DNA from: Melioribacteraceae bacterium
GTDB lineage: Bacteria; Bacteroidota; Ignavibacteria; Ignavibacteriales; Melioribacteraceae
DNA length: 64,000 nt
Direction of reading: 5' to 3'
Assembly (NCBI GenBank): GCA_021740785.1
Contig: JAIOZI010000019.1
Coordinates: forward strand, 1 to 64,000
Each line of letters opens with the position of its first letter. The stretch's first letter is position 1. Positions 390-61,191 of this stretch are shown piece after piece. Position numbers and translations under genes: made by a program. Under the pieces are notes generated by a model. The model saw only the letters and a list, made by a program, of their open reading frames with translations, had not been told where the DNA came from and ran no database searches.

Positions 390-2813
390 TTATCGAATAG
401 AAAAACGATCACTTATCACGAAGTATGGGGAGCTATTGTCAGTGATCATAATTCGTCCATACTCTGTTGGTGTTGGGGGCACATTCCAACTATAACTGTT
501 TTGAATATCGCCGGGGCTCAGAACAGAGTTGTCAATCTCGATCCAATCCACACCATTATTAATTGAATATGAAATAGTAACCGATGATATATCATCGGTA
601 TTCGACCACGTTATGTCAAATTCTGACCCGGCAATAACTGTTTCATTTAATGCCGGTCTTATGATTGTAATAAATATTATTTGGGATACAATGCTGAATA
701 CACCGTCGCTCTGATCTGTATAGTCAGGATCACTAGAGTCAGTTATTCGAATTCTTGCATTGGATGAAACTATGTCCGGGGTTAACCATTCGTAGCCGCC
801 TGTTGAAGGGTAATTCGTCGTAATAGTCTCCCAGTTTACACCGTTATCAAGAGTGTACTCGAGATTTACATACTCAATACCTCCGGAATTCCATTCAAGC
901 ATGCTTATAAAATCCTTAGCCAATTGCTCACCGCCATTAGGAGAAATTACACGTAAATATTTAGTATCTATCGTAAAGAAATCGTCGCTTTCATCAGTTG
1001 CACCTAAAAATTCAGGGTCCTCAGCCAAATATTCACTAACTCTTATTTTACATAAAGTGGATTTATATTCAATTGTTTGAGGAAGCTCCCAGAAATAATA
1101 ACCGCCGTTAGTTAGGTCAGAAACAACCGGGTTCCATTTGTCTCCGTCGTTCAAAGTATATTCAATCTTTACTTTTGGTACGTTTATGGAAGTCCACGCA
1201 ATTTCATATTGTTCCCCGACCAGCCATTCTTCTCCGCCGTTGGGAGACGTAACAGTTACGGAGGTCTGTGGAAGTACCGTGAAAATACCGTTGCTTTCAT
1301 CTTTCGGAAAACCGCTGCTGGCTTCAGATATTCTTACCTTGTATAAAGATGATGGTCTTGTGAATGATGCTTCATATACACCGTCGCAAGGTGTATTTGA
1401 TACCATTGTAAACCAATCTCCCGCAGATATTCCGTTGTTTTCGGTCCATTCAATAGTTACGTTTTTAACACCGCTGTAATCCCACGTAATATTAAATCCT
1501 TCGCCGGCTCTTATTAGCTCACCTCCATTTGGATATGTAAGTGTAAGAGTGGCTACTTCATCAATAGTAAATGAAGCATTACTTTCATCTGCCGGTTTAC
1601 CATCACCGCTGTCACTTACTCTTATAATACACTGCGTTGAGGGAGCGTTAGGTACATTCCAAGCATAATACCCTGAATTGGTTATATCTTCCGCTATTAC
1701 TTGCCAGGTAGAGCCGTTGTTTGTCGATAGCTCTATGTTAAATCTATCGATTCCAGTTGATTGCCATGTTATATTTTGATTAGTACCCGCTTCCCATGTT
1801 TCATTTCCATTAGGAGTTAACACCGTAATTTGCTGTGTAATTTGATTTGAAATTGTAAAAGGAGCCGATGAGATATCATAAGGTTCGCCGTCGTTAGCGT
1901 CTGATATTCTCATTCTGCAGTTTTCAGAGTAGTGAGATGGAATTAGATCCCATGTATAAGTTCCAATGCTTTCGGTAGAGTCAACAACCGTCATCCAATC
2001 GCTTCCGCCGTTCGTTGAGTATTCAATTTTAACATAAGCAATATTGTTGGAAATCCATTTAACAGTTTGACTTGTTCCTGAGAGCCAATTTTCACCACCG
2101 TTCGGAATGTTTAAAGAAATAAAAGTCTCCGGCTGAATGAAAAAGAAATCATCACTTTCATCCATTGGAAATCCTGCTTTGGCATCCATAATTCTAACCT
2201 TTGAAAGTCCGGAAGGAGTATTAGGAATAGGGCTCCAAAAATAAATACCTGTGTTTACTGTATCGACGGCAATAAAATTCCAATTTCTACCATTGTTCGT
2301 TGTATATTCAATTCTAACTGAATCGATACCCGAACTGAACCATCTAATTTCACCATCTTCACCTGCAAAAAGTTGCTCCCCGCCGTTTGGCGTATTCACG
2401 GTAAGAGATTTTGTGCTGCTTTTTATAATACTGAATACATTATCACTTTCATCGCTTTGTGTTTTTTCGAGCGTGCTGATTCTAACTTTACATTGATTAG
2501 AGATTTTGTTCGGAATTGGAAACCACTGATATGTGCCTGTATTTACAATACTATCAGCAATGTTTAGCCAGCTTGCGCCGTTATCAATAGAGTAATCCAA
2601 TTCCAACAGAGAAGTTGTATTGCCTTCCCAGGTTATTTCAAAAGTGGAGCCTTCACGAAGAGTGTCGCCACCATTAGGTTTTGTAATAATCAGAGCACTT
2701 AACGTACTGTCTGGAGAAGTTGGACTACCTGGCTCTGTCGGTGAATCCTGTTTCAGTTCACACGAGCCAATTAATGCTATGATAAGAATTATAATCGGGA
2801 TAAATCTTTTCAT
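390..2813 (-). CDS. lipoprotein with eight tandem Ig-like PNGGE modules
   Basis: This is a probable surface or periplasmic lipoprotein of unknown role. The N-terminus has a hydrophobic stretch ending in a lipobox (LIGSC, Cys18). A Ser/Thr/Pro-rich linker follows, then eight modules of about 95 residues. Each begins with a variant of PNGGE, contains a W-x-S-x-G/N-I pattern and an EYS-x-NNG-x-W strand, and ends near KVRISD...DESD-x-F-x-I. This resembles the Ser-Thr-rich Kre9/KNH-like fold repeats common in secreted Bacteroidota and Ignavibacteria proteins. The last module is divergent (PALNE in place of PNGGE). There is no enzymatic domain and no T9SS sorting tail, so a structural or adhesive role is only a guess. 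The gene is monocistronic and converges on the fragment at 121. Confidence 0.8.
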   Translation of the reverse strand: MKRFIPIIILIIALIGSCELKQDSPTEPGSPTSPDSTLSALIITKPNGGDTLREGSTFEITWEGNTTSLLELDYSIDNGASWLNIADSIVNTGTYQWFPIPNKISNQCKVRISTLEKTQSDESDNVFSIIKSSTKSLTVNTPNGGEQLFAGEDGEIRWFSSGIDSVRIEYTTNNGRNWNFIAVDTVNTGIYFWSPIPNTPSGLSKVRIMDAKAGFPMDESDDFFFIQPETFISLNIPNGGENWLSGTSQTVKWISNNIAYVKIEYSTNGGSDWMTVVDSTESIGTYTWDLIPSHYSENCRMRISDANDGEPYDISSAPFTISNQITQQITVLTPNGNETWEAGTNQNITWQSTGIDRFNIELSTNNGSTWQVIAEDITNSGYYAWNVPNAPSTQCIIRVSDSGDGKPADESNASFTIDEVATLTLTYPNGGELIRAGEGFNITWDYSGVKNVTIEWTENNGISAGDWFTMVSNTPCDGVYEASFTRPSSLYKVRISEASSGFPKDESNGIFTVLPQTSVTVTSPNGGEEWLVGEQYEIAWTSINVPKVKIEYTLNDGDKWNPVVSDLTNGGYYFWELPQTIEYKSTLCKIRVSEYLAEDPEFLGATDESDDFFTIDTKYLRVISPNGGEQLAKDFISMLEWNSGGIEYVNLEYTLDNGVNWETITTNYPSTGGYEWLTPDIVSSNARIRITDSSDPDYTDQSDGVFSIVSQIIFITIIRPALNETVIAGSEFDITWSNTDDISSVTISYSINNGVDWIEIDNSVLSPGDIQNSYSWNVPPTPTEYGRIMITDNSSPYFVISDRFSIR

Positions 2814-2971
2814 TGGCGCCTCGTTTATTAACTAATTATGAGGTTTATATAAAATGTAACCGGCATTTGAGAATCAAATAAATTTAAACAAATATACTCA
2901 AAAAATCGAAAAAAAAAGTGATTTCTATTACACACTTAGGTATTAAATGGCAATTTGCAATGCAGCATTAT

Positions 2972-2992
2972 TACTTATAATCATAATAAGTA
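2972..2992. other. short hairpin in the divergent intergenic region
   Basis: A 7-bp perfect inverted repeat (TACTTAT/ATAAGTA) with a 7-nt loop lies about 100 bp before the lectin/OmpA gene. The 281-bp gap at 2814-3094 is otherwise AT-rich. It must hold the promoters of both divergent genes, but no box convinced me. Confidence 0.3.
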
Positions 2993-3094
2993 TTTGTTGC
3001 AATACAGAAAAGTGATTTTAAATTTTTATTTTATTAAAATTGTTTTTAGATAACATCCTTGTTATTTTTAAATTCTTAATCAAAAAGGGAGATA

Positions 3095-3826
3095 GTGATG
3101 AAAAAGAAGTTCATGATGATTTTTTCAGTTATGTTATTTACGTTTACAGTAACTAATGCTCAGATGGAAACAGGTTCATTTGCTGCAGATTATAATTCAC
3201 CTGGTTACGCTCTGCATCAGGGAAATGGCGTAAGATCATTTGATATTGATGTTAGATTCAACAAACCGTTTGATTCCCGACCGAATGTTAGTGTTTCTGT
3301 AATTTCTGTGGATTCCGATAAAGAAGTGAATACCAGGTATATTGCCGAAGCATTGGGAATTAATAAAGGTGGTTTCTTATTAAGAATTTCCACATGGGAC
3401 AATTCGATGATTTACGGGATCACCGGTCAATGGTTTGCACAGCTTCAGGAAATTGAAGCTGAATCAATTCCTGTAAAAGTTGGTAATACAATTAGATTAA
3501 ACAATGTATTGTTCGAAACCGGTAAAGCAGCATTGCAGTCCGAGTCTTACAAAGAATTGGATAAGGTTGTTGAATTCCTGGGAAGTAATCCCAGCGTAAA
3601 AATTGAACTTTCCGGTCATACTGATAACGTAGGCTCTGATGCAACTAATCTTAAATTATCTCAAGATAGAGCAGATGCGGTAAAAGCTTACCTCGTTGGA
3701 AAGGGTATTGCCGACGGTAGAATTGATGCTAAAGGATATGGATCAACTAGACCTGTTGCATCTAATAAATTCGAATCCGGAAGAGATTTGAACAGAAGAG
3801 TTGAGTTTACAATTCTTGAAAAATAA
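3095..3826 (+). CDS. OmpA-family protein with N-terminal H-type lectin-like domain
   Basis: This is a predicted cell-envelope protein. It has a signal peptide (MMKKKFMMIFSVM..., cleavage after TNAQ). Residues of about 25-110 look like an H-type lectin domain (discoidin/Helix agglutinin type): METGSF start, FNKPFDSRPNVSVSV, a conserved R-Y strand, LRISTW and an IYGITGQW-like end. Residues of about 130-243 are an OmpA C-terminal peptidoglycan-binding domain: LNNVLFETGKA, ELSGHTDN, LSQDRADAVKAYL and GRDLNRRVEF. The protein may anchor a carbohydrate-binding head to peptidoglycan. The start has a clear upstream AAAGGGAG. There is no beta-barrel, so it is not a classical OmpA porin. The OmpA assignment is secure; the lectin assignment rests on motif resemblance. 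Confidence 0.8.
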   Translation: MMKKKFMMIFSVMLFTFTVTNAQMETGSFAADYNSPGYALHQGNGVRSFDIDVRFNKPFDSRPNVSVSVISVDSDKEVNTRYIAEALGINKGGFLLRISTWDNSMIYGITGQWFAQLQEIEAESIPVKVGNTIRLNNVLFETGKAALQSESYKELDKVVEFLGSNPSVKIELSGHTDNVGSDATNLKLSQDRADAVKAYLVGKGIADGRIDAKGYGSTRPVASNKFESGRDLNRRVEFTILEK

Positions 3827-3848: not shown

Positions 3849-3922
3849 GGCGCGTTCGTCTAGTGGTCAAGGACATTGCCCTCTCAAGGCAAAGATCACG
3901 GGTTCAAATCCCGTACGCGCTA
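3849..3922 (+). tRNA. tRNA-Glu (anticodon CTC)
   Basis: The cloverleaf folds completely. The acceptor stem is 3849-3855 with 3915-3921, the D arm is GTCT/GGAC, the anticodon stem is TTGCC/GGCAA with loop CTCTCAA (anticodon CTC, reading GAG), and the T arm is ACGGG-TTCAAAT-CCCGT. The discriminator is A at 3922 and CCA is not encoded. The first acceptor pair is G1 with T72, a wobble; the other six pairs are Watson-Crick. Confidence 0.95.
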
Positions 3923-18566: not shown

Positions 18567-19880
18567 ATGAAAACACCTTTAGTTATTATTGTCGGCAGAC
18601 CGAATGTTGGTAAATCAACATTGTTTAACCGTTTGACAAAGAGCCGCAGTGCAATTGTTGACGATGTCAGCGGAGTTACGCGTGATAGAATTTACGGTGA
18701 AGTTGAATGGAACGGTAAACTATTTAGAATCATGGATACCGGCGGGTATGTTCCGGATTCTGACGATTTGTTTGAAACGGCTATTCGAGAACAGGTCTCT
18801 ATAGCTATCGATGAAGCTGAGGCGGTACTTTTCTTAACAGACGGGCGGCATGGAATTAATCCTATTGATGAAGAAATTGCAAACTTGTTAAGGAGGTCCG
18901 GCAAGCCATCGTTTCTATTGGTGAACAAACTCGATACACCCGATCAAACCATTAATGTTTCCGAATTTTATCAACTTGCGCTCCCGAATGTTTATGACAT
19001 TTCTGCAATCAACGGAAGAAATTTAGGTGATCTGCTGGATGATATTCAAGACAGTTTGAATTACGAAGCGAGTGAACGAAATAATGACAGAAGGCTCCGG
19101 ATTTCTATTATCGGCAGACCGAATGTTGGTAAGTCGTCACTTACAAATGCACTGCTTGGATTTGATAGAACGATTGTTACAGATATCCCGGGCACAACTC
19201 GTGATAGTATTGATTCGGTTCTAAAATATTACGGGGAAGAAATTGTTCTGGTTGATACAGCAGGTTTGAGACGTAAAACAAAGGTGAAAGAGAATATAGA
19301 ATTTTATTCAAATGTTAGGACTTACCGCGCCATTATGGACAGCGATGTTTCAATTCTAATGCTTGATGCTGTACAGGGAATTGAGAAGCAGGATCTTAAA
19401 ATTATTCAAGAGTCGGTGCGAAGAAGGAAGGGGCTGATTATTGCGGTGAACAAATGGGATCTAATAGAAAAAGAAACTAATACCGCAAAGCAGTTTGAAA
19501 TTGAGATACGGGAAAAGCTCGGTTACATTGATTTTGTCCCTGTCCTTTTTATTTCTGCTCTCACAAAACAAAGGATTTATAAACTGATTGATCTCGCAAA
19601 AGAGATTGACATAGAACGAAAAAAGAAAATTTCAACAAGTGAATTAAATGATGTATTACTGCCGTTAATTGATCAAAACCCGCCGCCTGCAACCTCGCAG
19701 GGGAAAGAGATAAAGATTAAGTATATCACTCAAGTGGGTGATTACTACCCGATTTTTATGTTCTTCACGAATTTCCCGAAACAAATCCCGGACCATTATA
19801 AAAGATATCTTGAGAAATTGATTCGTAAAACATTCGGTTTTAGAGGCGTCTCAATAACACTTTCTTTCAAAGAAAAGTAA
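18567..19880 (+). CDS. der: ribosome biogenesis GTPase Der (EngA)
   Basis: This is a double-GTPase that acts in 50S subunit assembly. There are two tandem G domains, each with a GRPNVGKS P-loop (residues 10-17 and about 180), DTGGY and DTAGL G3 motifs, and NKLD and NKWD G4 motifs. A C-terminal KH-like domain ends in [11 protein letters not shown]. Its 437 residues are normal for the family. No strong Shine-Dalgarno precedes the ATG. The upstream leader carries competing hairpins, and the downstream gap carries a palindromic repeat element. Confidence 0.97.
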
Positions 19881-19941
19881 GTTTGATTATCTTATAAAAA
19901 AATTGATATCAACTAATCTGCAAAATATTTTTTATATTTAA

Positions 19942-20156
19942 CCCAAAAAATTCATTGTAAATGATTTTTTTGCCGTTGACCGCTCATAAAATGTTTTATA
20001 AAACATTTTATGTTGCGGGGTTAACCCCGACAATTTGTAAGAAAGATATTTTACTTAAATAACGAATTCCAAAATTCCTATGAGGCTAAGTATTTGATAT
20101 TTCTTAACTTACAAATTGTCAGCCCGAAGGGCAGATTTTCCATTGGAAAATCTGGG
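19942..20156 (+). repeat. dispersed palindromic repeat element, copy 1
   Basis: This is 215 bp, closely similar over its whole length to 33302-33517 in the same orientation. It consists of successive inverted repeats: AAAAAATTCATT with AATGATTTTTT (one mismatch); a perfect 28-bp palindrome at 19985-20012; a perfect palindrome CGGGGTTAACCCCG at 20016-20029; an enclosing pair GACAATTTGTAAG (20029-20041) and CTTACAAATTGTC (20108-20120); GCCC-GAA-GGGC; and CAGATTTTCCA/TGGAAAATCTG (20132-20154). It starts 61 nt after der. It has no coding capacity and no transposase, so it is a MITE/REP-like element or a structured RNA. Confidence 0.85.
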
Positions 20157-20193
20157 TTTAATGCTAGTTTGAATTTTTCATTTATTATTCGGT

Positions 20194-31395: not shown

Positions 31396-33300
31396 ATGTC
31401 AGAAGAAACAAAAACAACTCAAAATTATGAGTTTAAAGCTGAGGTTAAACAGCTTCTAAATATACTTGTACATTCTTTGTATACAAACAGAGATATATTT
31501 TTACGAGAACTAATTTCTAATTCTTCCGATGCATTAGATAAGTTAAGGTTCGAGTCGAATAAAGGAACAGAAATTATTGATAAAGATTTACCGTTGGAGA
31601 TAAATGTTAAATTTGACGCGAAAGAAAATACAATAACAATCCGAGATACCGGCATCGGGATGTCGAAGGATGAAATAATTAAAAACATCGGAACCATTGC
31701 TAAATCGGGTACTTCGGAATTTCTTGAACAGTTGGCAAAAAATAAAGAGAGCGCAAGTAATTTAATCGGAAAATTTGGAGTTGGATTCTATTCCGTATTT
31801 ATGGTAGCTGATAAAGTGGTGCTTAAAAGTAAGTCTTATAAAAAAGATGAAAAGGCGGTTCGCTGGGAATCCGATGGTTTAGGTACTTATGAAATGGAAG
31901 AAACCGGCGGTGTGATTCGTGGAACAACAATTGAAATTCATCTAAAAGAAGATGCAAAAGAATTGGCAGAAGAATACCGGTTAGAGAGTATCATCAAGAA
32001 GCATTCTAATTTCATAAACTTCCCGATTTACCTTAGTGAAAAAAGAGTAAATACGGTTTCGGCAATATGGCGCGAACCAAAATCTTCTATCAAAAAGGAA
32101 CAGTACACAGAATTCTATAAATTCCTCACCTATGACAGTGAAGAACCGTTTGAAATTATTCATAAATCAGTTGACGCCCCGATTCAGTTCAGCGCCTTGC
32201 TGTTCATACCTAAGAAGAATTTTGATATGTTCGGATTTTCCAGGGAAAATTACGGGTTGGATTTATACGTACGCCGGGTTCTCATTCAGCATCAAAACAA
32301 AGACATGCTTCCTGAATACCTTTCATTTGTAAAAGGTGTTGTTGATTCCGAGGACTTGCCGCTAAATATCTCACGTGAAACACTTCAGGAAAATTTAATT
32401 TTTACGAAGATTGCCAATAGTGTTACATCACAGGTGCTGAGTCATTTATCAAAATTAGCTGAAGATGATCCTCAACGATATACTGAGTTTTGGAATGAGC
32501 ACGGAAAGGTATTCCGGCTCGGTTATTCTGATTTTACCAATTTGGAAAAATATCAAGAATTGATAAGATTTAATTCGTCAAAAGTCGACAGCGTGAAAGA
32601 TCTTGTCTCATTTGCAGATTATACATCAAGGATGAAAGAATCACAGAAAGAAATCTATTATGTATTTGGTCAATCTCGCGGTGCGATTGAATCCGATCCC
32701 CATTTGGAAATATTCAAGAGTAAGGGAGTAGAAGTGCTCTACTTATTCGACCCGGTTGAGGAATTGGTAATGAGTTCAATTAGAAAATATAAGGATTATG
32801 AGCTTAAATCTGTTGACCAGGTTGATCTTTCTAAAATTGACAAGTTGGAAACCGTTGATGAAAAGAAAACTGATGTTGAAGAAATTTCGAAAGAAGATTC
32901 CAAAGCAATGAAAGGTTTTGTTGACCGTGTTAAAGAAATCTTAGGCGACCGTGTTAAAGATGTAAAAATTTCCAAGCGGTTGAAAGACAGTCCTGCTGTG
33001 TTAGTTAATCCTGATGATACTACTTCATCGACAATGCAGAAAATAATGCATATTACGAATCAGGATAAATCGATTCCTAAAAAGATATTTGAAATTAATC
33101 AAGATCATAAAATGATTAGAAATCTTTTAACCGCATATAAATCCGACGCCAACGATGAATATGTGAAAAATGTAATTGAGCAGTTGTACGAGTCTTATTT
33201 GATGTTGGATGGATATTTAGATGATCCGCACATGATGGTTAAGAGAATAAACAAACTCATGGAACAATCAAGTGATTGGTATAATTCAGTAAAAAATTAA
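31396..33300 (+). CDS. htpG: molecular chaperone HtpG (Hsp90)
   Basis: This is the bacterial Hsp90 ATPase chaperone. The N-terminal GHKL ATP site is clear: RELISNSSDALDKLR, DTGIGMSKDEI, GTIAKSGTSEF and GKFGVGFYSVFMVAD. The middle domain has SRETLQENLIF with the catalytic-loop Arg, and the C-terminal dimerisation domain ends near residue 625. Its 634 residues are standard. The start has a strong GGAGGAAAT. The upstream 105 nt are AT-rich, with repeated TCGATTA words but no CIRCE element. A palindromic repeat element begins 2 nt after the stop. Confidence 0.98.
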   Translation: MSEETKTTQNYEFKAEVKQLLNILVHSLYTNRDIFLRELISNSSDALDKLRFESNKGTEIIDKDLPLEINVKFDAKENTITIRDTGIGMSKDEIIKNIGTIAKSGTSEFLEQLAKNKESASNLIGKFGVGFYSVFMVADKVVLKSKSYKKDEKAVRWESDGLGTYEMEETGGVIRGTTIEIHLKEDAKELAEEYRLESIIKKHSNFINFPIYLSEKRVNTVSAIWREPKSSIKKEQYTEFYKFLTYDSEEPFEIIHKSVDAPIQFSALLFIPKKNFDMFGFSRENYGLDLYVRRVLIQHQNKDMLPEYLSFVKGVVDSEDLPLNISRETLQENLIFTKIANSVTSQVLSHLSKLAEDDPQRYTEFWNEHGKVFRLGYSDFTNLEKYQELIRFNSSKVDSVKDLVSFADYTSRMKESQKEIYYVFGQSRGAIESDPHLEIFKSKGVEVLYLFDPVEELVMSSIRKYKDYELKSVDQVDLSKIDKLETVDEKKTDVEEISKEDSKAMKGFVDRVKEILGDRVKDVKISKRLKDSPAVLVNPDDTTSSTMQKIMHITNQDKSIPKKIFEINQDHKMIRNLLTAYKSDANDEYVKNVIEQLYESYLMLDGYLDDPHMMVKRINKLMEQSSDWYNSVKN

Positions 33301-33301
33301 T

Positions 33302-33517
33302 CCTAAAAAATTCATTGGAAATGAATTTTTTGCTGCTAGCCGCTTATAAAATGTTTTAATAAAACATTTTATGTTGCGGGATTAACCCCGACAATTTGTA
33401 AGAAAAATATTTTACTCAAATAACGAATACCAAAATTTCTATATGACTAAGTATTTGATATTTCACAACTTACAAATTGTCGGCCCGAAGGGCAGATTTT
33501 CCAATGGAAAATCTGGG
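33302..33517 (+). repeat. dispersed palindromic repeat element, copy 2
   Basis: This is the second copy of the 215-bp element at 19942, in the same orientation and also directly 3' of a housekeeping gene. All inverted repeats are kept: AAAAAATTCATT-GGA-AATGAATTTTTT is a perfect 12-bp stem here; ATAAAATGTTTTA/TAAAACATTTTAT is kept with an extra centre base; CGGGATTAACCCCG has one mismatch; GACAATTTGTAAG (33390-33402) and CTTACAAATTGTC (33469-33481) are identical to copy 1; CAGATTTTCCA/TGGAAAATCTG is identical, with a changed centre base. Confidence 0.85.
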
Positions 33518-33548
33518 ATAATTTTTATTTTTACAGGGAATTCTTGAA

Positions 33549-60644: not shown

Positions 60645-60741
60645 AGCCAGGCTCCGGTTAACAAGTTAATACCCAACTCCGTCAGGTCCGGAAGGAAGCA
60701 GCGGCAAGTATTTAATTTGTGTAATCGGTAAGTCTGGCTTT
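60645..60741 (+). ncRNA. ffs: signal recognition particle RNA (small, bacterial 4.5S type)
   Basis: The conserved domain IV core GTCAGGTCCGGAAGGAAGCA lies in the middle, with the GGAA tetraloop and the asymmetric internal loop that binds Ffh. The ends pair as AGCCAG (60645-60650) with CTGGCT (60734-60739), giving one long hairpin of about 97 nt. A T-run after the stem acts as terminator. It overlaps the minus-strand sixA stop at its extreme 3' end. It guides membrane-protein targeting with Ffh and FtsY. Confidence 0.93.
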
Positions 60742-61191
60742 TTAATGCGGCGGAAGAAAAAATTCCAAATAAGGTCCTGCTGCTGTTAACTTTACACATC
60801 CAACACTACCCGGTGAAAAAGCAATAGAACTGCCGCTGCATGATAGCAGCATGCTGCAATAAGTTGAAACTTGCGGTTGATGCATAACCAACACAAAGTT
60901 TTCGCCGTCGAGAGATTTTAATGAGATAATTAATTCCTCTAAGCTGGAACCGTTTAGAAGAGATTTATCAAAAAGCATTTCATTTTTCACATCAAACTTT
61001 TCATGAATAATTTCTGCTGTCTGTTTCGCCCTTACTAATGGTGAAGTTATTACGTAGTCAATATCGGAATTTAATTTCCGCCACGTATTAATGGTTGATA
61101 AAAGTTTTATCTTTCCTCTTTGCGTTATTTCCCTTGAGTCATCAGGGTGTGTATTTTCGGCTTCGGCATGTCTAACGAAAAATATTTTCAT
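60742..61191 (-). CDS. sixA: phosphohistidine phosphatase SixA-like protein
   Basis: This is a small histidine phosphatase. The catalytic RHG-type motif is VRHAEAE at the N-terminus, with the second arm TSPLVRAKQTAEII (Arg) and the late catalytic His in VLVMHQPQVS. It is 149 residues when started at the ATG complementary to 61189-61191, where the core begins; the frame is open further upstream. SixA removes phosphate from phosphohistidine in E. coli; the target here is unknown. The gene is convergent with the SRP RNA and divergent from the antiporter. Confidence 0.88.
   Translation of the reverse strand: MKIFFVRHAEAENTHPDDSREITQRGKIKLLSTINTWRKLNSDIDYVITSPLVRAKQTAEIIHEKFDVKNEMLFDKSLLNGSSLEELIISLKSLDGENFVLVMHQPQVSTYCSMLLSCSGSSIAFSPGSVGCVKLTAAGPYLEFFLPPH

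Follow-up and report, generated by a model that had tools for sequence, protein, structure and literature searches.

The block at positions 19942–20156 of the window, the whole 64,000-nucleotide stretch of Melioribacteraceae DNA that was analysed, is a copy of a MITE, and the family is of a known kind: short (215/216 bp), free of a transposase gene, bounded by inverted ends, flanked by a duplication of fixed length, and present in many dispersed copies. Judging from sequence comparisons, we put at about two in three the probability that the MITE is moved by IS1380-type transposition and that its hairpin interior is kept through the propagation of copies that fold. Not in an earlier note on this DNA are the flanking 5-bp duplications, the additional copies (over 100), and the related families in other genomes.

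The window contains two copies on the forward strand, copy 1 at 19942–20156 (215 bp) and copy 2 at 33302–33517 (216 bp), both full length. As the earlier note described, the two blocks are nearly identical (~90%), share one orientation, and follow the stops of der (18567–19880) and htpG (31396–33300), with coordinates that are exact; the gene names are those of the note and are consistent with the translations. Copy 1 is positioned between the two TTTAA copies of its target duplication (19937–19941 and 20157–20161). Copy 2 is positioned between TTAAT (33297–33301), which includes the TAA stop of the gene at 31396–33300, and ATAAT (33518–33522), which has one mismatch to the left duplication. 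The left terminal inverted repeat of copy 1 is CCCAAAAAATTCATTGTAAA (19942–19961, plus strand), and the right one, read on the minus strand, is CCCAGATTTTCCAATGGAAA (20137–20156). From left to right on the plus strand, copy 1 presents hairpin H1 (19945–19971), of the type AAAAAATTCATT / AATGAATTTTTT; H2 (19985–20012), a 28-bp palindrome whose arms are exchanged by compensatory changes in other genera; H3 (20016–20029), the palindrome CGGGGTTAACCCCG, of which GGTTAACC is constant across genera; the long-range helix H4, whose left arm GACAATTTGTAAG (20029–20041) and right arm CTTACAAATTGTC (20108–20120) enclose 66 nt; mini-hairpin H5, GCCC-GAA-GGGC (20122–20132); and terminal hairpin H6, CAGATTTTCC..GGAAAATCTG (20132–20154), which shares bases with the right inverted repeat. 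The hairpins named in the earlier note are all present, and the element folds far better than its shuffles (z -8.7 as DNA and -7.5 as RNA; 0 of 200 shuffles). Elsewhere in the window, 60645–60742 and 3849–3922 match bacterial small SRP RNA and a tRNA, respectively, at Rfam gathering score.

The window's own genome (G000; 4.85 Mb in 115 contigs) contains about 115 copies or fragments of the MITE. A DNA search gives 40 scored full matches of at least 90% identity from 175 candidates, and pattern searches locate the right end at 98 places and the middle at 96, which merge to 117; a later search with the ends adds 4. Many copies are cut by contig ends, so the true copy number may exceed the count, and the many contigs ending in the MITE explain the frequent breaks in the assembly. 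Among the fetched loci, a profile scan lists 72 copies in which both ends are present, most of them 215–216 bp long. The 5-bp flanks are identical left and right in 56 of the 72 (shuffled pairing: mean 10, maximum 19), and none of these 72 full-length copies has a duplication of 6 bp or more. The duplicated target is YTWAW (TTTAA, TTAAA, TTTAT, TTAAT, CTAAT). Two empty paralogous sites, each with one copy of the target, correspond to occupied ones: GATTGTTAATGAAAATGG to GATTGTTAAA–MITE–TTAATGAAAATGG, and CATACTAATTGAAATCC to CATACTAAT–MITE–CTAATAAAAACC. The terminal inverted repeats are imperfect over 20 bp (CCCARAWWWTYCATTGGAAA); the two ends, CCCAAAAAATTCATTGGAAA and CCCAGATTTTCCATTGGAAA, match at 15 of 20 positions in the copies of this genome and are conserved over genera. 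The earlier suggestion of a MITE mobilised in trans is therefore borne out by inverted ends, 5-bp duplications, high copy number, and empty sites. The orientation of copies relative to local GC skew, a sign of strand-specific insertion, gives 62 of 110, which is not significant, and a search of viral contigs and plasmid records returns no match to the MITE.

The target contains TAA, so that a stop codon survives insertion, which explains the position of the MITE after the stops. Of 67 copies, 17, with window copy 2 among them, have a target duplication that overlaps a long reading frame's stop codon. Gaps between convergent genes hold 23 of 74 copies and only 12% of intergenic length.

Some loci of this genome show further features. 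Copies at L073, L111, L168, and L078 (contigs C3, C33, C109, and C4) have the common flank ATATCATACTAAT/CTAATAAAAACCTTATTCGG, indicating that they sit in copies of a larger repeat, and L087 is a paralogue of that repeat without the MITE. At L172 (C78:42931–42957), a solo 27-bp palindrome, CCCAGATTTTCCAATGGAAAATCTGGG, follows a gene between TTTAA and TTAAA; it may be what an extreme deletion has left of a MITE, or else a host terminator that gave rise to the MITE end. At L123 (C48), in the interval 63–596, a downstream reading frame with a lipobox-like stretch takes its in-frame start and some 24 codons (MAKYLIFLNLQIVGPKGRFSNGKSG) from the right part of a MITE copy. At 1566–3580 of the same locus, an IS1634-family element with a 496-aa transposase (NCBIfam 3.5e-100) is inserted inside a MITE copy. 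On either side of it stands a near-identical direct repeat made up of ~148 bp of MITE sequence, which is unusually long for a target duplication. The founding IS1634 reportedly makes a long target duplication as well.

Relatives of the MITE are present in other genera. An exact match to the right end lies in Ignavibacteriales bacterium CG_4_9_14_3_um_filter_30_11 (G058; G058 and G081 coincide in their contigs). At least 30 copies or fragments are present there, again with these 5-bp duplications, and the full copies are 216–219 bp long. Among 164 genomes of the order, the end motif is found 91 times in G081 and 48 times in G155, and fewer times in G146, G136, G108, G069, and others. The MITE is not in most of these relatives, indicating that it comes and goes. 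Sister elements in G155, G146, G136, and G069 are 50–233 bp long, most with exact 5-bp duplications; the three elements in G108 have the same ends but inexact duplications. G155 has mosaic and shortened forms too, with interiors partly outside the hairpin scheme. Elements of 50–72 bp at L077 3121–3215 (G000, contig C4; ~50 bp by eye), L271 3037–3086, and L260 3019–3090 keep both ends and the 5-bp duplication and lack nearly the whole interior. Small GC-rich palindromes of the GCCTGCCCGTAGCAGGCGGGC type are inserted within sister-family elements at L256, L257, and L265 and are perhaps a second mobile repeat.

Across genera, the nested hairpins are conserved as structure rather than as sequence. 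Their order is constant while the arm sequences differ: H1, a mini-hairpin GCCGAAGGC (in most families), H2 (13–17 bp), H3 GGGGTTAACCCC, the long-range helix H4 around 58–70 nt, H5 GCCCGAAGGGC, and H6 over the right end. The H2 arms are CATAAAATGTTTT/AAAACATTTTATG in G000 and CGATAGTAAGATGTTGT/..CGTCTTACTATCG in G155. The H4 arms are GACAATTTGTAAG/CTTACAAATTGTC in G000, GACAAGCAT/ATGCTTGTC in G155, GACAAGCAGT/ACTGCTTGTC in G136, and GCAAAGTTGTAAC/GTTACAACTTAGC in G146. In a MAFFT alignment of 13 elements from seven genomes, which was not fitted to structure, 93.8% of cells pair, compared with 87.0% after shuffling. Double changes occur at 18 pairs, in 49 cells compared with 16 in shuffled alignments (0 of 500 shuffles), a count that is no probability because the rows are related; sliding the structure, a control that retains the relatedness, gives 1–12 compensatory cells. 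RNAalifold finds the same helices unaided.

The two copies in the window could not by themselves show selection on structure, which the earlier note had suggested; the support comes from the cross-genus comparison and from inherited as against private variants, and from these only. Over 70 copies in G000, per-base divergence is 3.5% in the arms and 8.4% outside them, in line with the remark that copies differ in the loops while the arms stay the same. Within G000 alone, there is no covariation (94.7% paired versus 94.4% shuffled, with compensatory counts no higher than in slid controls). Single-copy variants number 74 in the arms and 55 outside, at 108 sites each, so private changes are not depleted in the arms. 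Variants shared by at least five copies number 8 in the arms and 29 in the loops, at equal numbers of sites (p 8e-4). In a tree of the 70 copies, changes in arms and loops number 24 and 97 on the inner branches and 190 and 297 on the outer ones (Fisher p 7e-5), and the contrast persists without the hypervariable positions 31–43 (p 0.0015). The share of broken pairs climbs with the divergence, that is, the age, of the copy, from 2.8% to 15.4%, and among 236 changed pairs in resident copies, 8 are Watson-Crick-compensated and 192 are broken. Inherited variants that avoid the arms, together with residents that decay, indicate that selection on folding appears to act in the copies that propagate, not at insertion sites.

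The compensatory changes could instead arise with no selection, if the element is an IS1380-type MITE with functionless hairpins whose arms are matched to each other by template switching (quasi-palindrome correction). The scarcity of wobble intermediates across genera, about 11 one-sided G-U cells compared with the 49 double changes, is expected if both arms change together in this way. However, the residents, with few compensated pairs and breakage that rises with age, show no visible correction rate. Template switching on its own should have left more corrected pairs in old copies than are found, although over long times it may have contributed. In addition, the architecture is kept too, both in hairpin order and in the size of the H4 loop, 58–70 nt in most full-length families. 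We therefore regard this explanation as rather unlikely.

A second alternative is an interior that works as a structured RNA or bidirectional terminator and aids the host or lowers the cost of insertion. The high RNA folding potential (z -7.5) and the enrichment between convergent genes are consistent with such a role. However, wobble-compatible transitions show no strand bias (22 versus 26 events), copies show no orientation bias relative to genes (18 same, 22 opposite), and the arms are not depleted of private mutations. Rfam has no family that matches the element at gathering score, with sub-threshold hits only at L001, and target choice accounts for the position of copies near gene ends, as the duplications over stop codons indicate. 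An RNA function, which the earlier note had left as an option, is thus not supported, and we consider this reading improbable.

The ends of the MITE point to a candidate mover. In G069, an insertion sequence of 1438 bp (L296/L304) has the ends CCCAGATATTTCAGTAGAAT and CCCAGATTTTGCAGTAGGAA flanking a transposase gene that NCBIfam assigns to IS1380 (E 3.8e-78). A search of the order with this protein finds intact relatives in two more genomes, G100 and G161. In G161, the element is 1486 bp long, with CCCAAAATTGTCAATAGAGA and CCCAAAATTGTCATTAGAAA as its ends, and is flanked by ATAAT, duplicated exactly over 5 bp; the other two intact elements have imperfect flanks (ATAAT/TTTAT and TTTAA/TTAAA), and the flanks of all three fit the target type of the MITE. 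The IS1380 and MITE ends agree at 15–18 of 20 bases, and at most 0.6% of 20-mers starting with CCC agree as well, a fraction that is no fair P-value since a MITE-derived motif served to locate the ends. The positions of the ends around the gene, together with the duplication, provide support independent of the motif search. IS1380-family elements make duplications of 4–5 bp, a range that includes those of the MITE, and its ends are IS1380-like as read with the same MITE-derived motif. ISEcp1, of the IS1380 family, has duplications of 4–5 bp and an IRR, CGTGGAATTTAGGG, whose reverse complement starts with CCCTAAATTCCACG (PMC7864471). Matching ends and the same 5-bp target type suggest that the MITE is probably moved in trans by an IS1380 transposase.

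Of the transposase with matching ends that the earlier note had proposed to look for, an autonomous form exists in other genera of the order, whereas the source genome itself has only a broken fragment. This trace (L317/L096, C16:10011–10313) is a 101-residue transposase fragment with two stops, ~700 bp from a MITE copy, and neither a PF13701 search nor a protein search of the G000 assembly finds an intact IS1380 gene. PF13701 matches only one IS1634 gene there, weakly and below the cut-off, and PF01609 matches only two IS1634-like genes. Since the assembly is in 115 contigs, many ending in the MITE, an intact IS1380 copy may be missing from it. On contig C255 of G081, an IS1380 fragment lies beside an end, CCCATATTTATCATTAGAAA.

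Movement by another DDE family, such as the IS1634-family element of G000, would have the advantage of an intact transposase in the same genome and of ends that also start with CC. The IS1634 ends (CCCGACTTGTGACAAC) differ from those of the MITE past the first bases, and the single copy of this element in G000 lies between direct repeats of ~148 bp, not 5 bp, which makes this mover very unlikely. IS701 (PF13546) was rejected: it is not in G000, and the IS701 elements of the order end in ACTCACGTTACGCAA-like repeats. A REP/BIME-type element moved by a Y1 (TnpA-REP) transposase, another option of the earlier note, would likewise be dispersed, intergenic, and palindromic, but is excluded for practical purposes by the 5-bp target duplications, the ~20-bp terminal inverted repeats, and a size of 215 bp, far above that of a REP; Y1 transposition is not known to yield such duplications and repeats. 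Recent simple duplication of one intergenic block, which the earlier note would have accepted had there been only two copies with neither covariation nor a mobility signature, fits the two similar window copies and is ruled out by more than 100 dispersed copies with differing flanks and target duplications.

In the explanation that we favour, a DDE transposase of the IS1380 family, acting in trans, would recognise the CCCARA... ends and insert the MITE at YTWAW with a 5-bp duplication. The copies that fold would be those that propagate, keeping the hairpin interior, and resident copies lose structure with no visible purging. The active folded form is most likely DNA, either a cruciform or hairpins on single-stranded DNA at replication, and folding may help bring the ends together or help donor recognition. 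The mini-hairpin loops are GAA, GGA, GTA, AAA, and AGA. GNA triloops form extraordinarily stable DNA mini-hairpins, and AAA triplets form DNA loops too, according to work cited in PMC6479982. Most G000 copies have lost the first mini-hairpin, whose stem survives intact in 18 of 70, and 38 of 70 have the second one intact, so that the loop types give a hint of a DNA form and no more. Against a need for the fold, the 50- and 72-bp elements have intact ends and exact duplications with no inner hairpins, which means that the complete interior is not a strict requirement or else disappeared once the element had inserted. A stronger proposal, which we consider possible but less than likely, is that the elements are IS1380 derivatives that need a conserved DNA fold to move, the cis-acting signal being the hairpins and not the sequence, with arms that turn over between genera by compensatory change. 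If so, the GAA, GGA, GTA, and AAA loops would suggest that the active form is single-stranded DNA.

Bacteria commonly carry palindromic MITEs, and whether the hairpins have a role is unsettled. With numerous copies in a single genome and sister families across several genera, the question can be split: residents decay, copies with descendants retain the fold, and between genera the fold lasts longer than the sequence, which makes its role in movement directly testable. The MITE is of a known kind, while the conserved folded interior and the link to IS1380 look new; the open-licence literature searched contains no description of an IS1380-derived MITE or of its fold-level constraint. IS1380 transposases, the family of ISEcp1, would thereby gain an apparently undescribed class of non-autonomous passengers.

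Among known systems, TIMEs are miniature elements derived from Tn3 that, like the MITE, are gene-less, moved in trans, and flanked by 5-bp duplications, but Tn3 ends start with GGGG and are 38 bp long, whereas the MITE ends start with CCC and are 20 bp long. The palindromic MITEs ERIC, Correia/NEMIS, RUP, and QMITE are set apart, by their descriptions, in sequence, and the MITE differs from them in its 5-bp YTWAW duplication, its IS1380-type ends, and the exchange of its arms across genera with pairing kept. It resembles these families, which are reviewed in PMC10969869, in being short, gene-less, A+T-rich, and intergenic, with many copies, inverted ends, and stable predicted stem-loops (PMC10969869). 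With IS1380 insertion sequences such as ISEcp1, it shares A+T-rich ends starting with CCY/CCC and target duplications of 4–5 bp (PMC7864471), and with those of the same order, ends that are identical at 15–18 of 20 positions. Unlike them, it has no transposase, is 215 bp long, and has an interior that is, as far as seen, unrelated to that of the insertion sequences.
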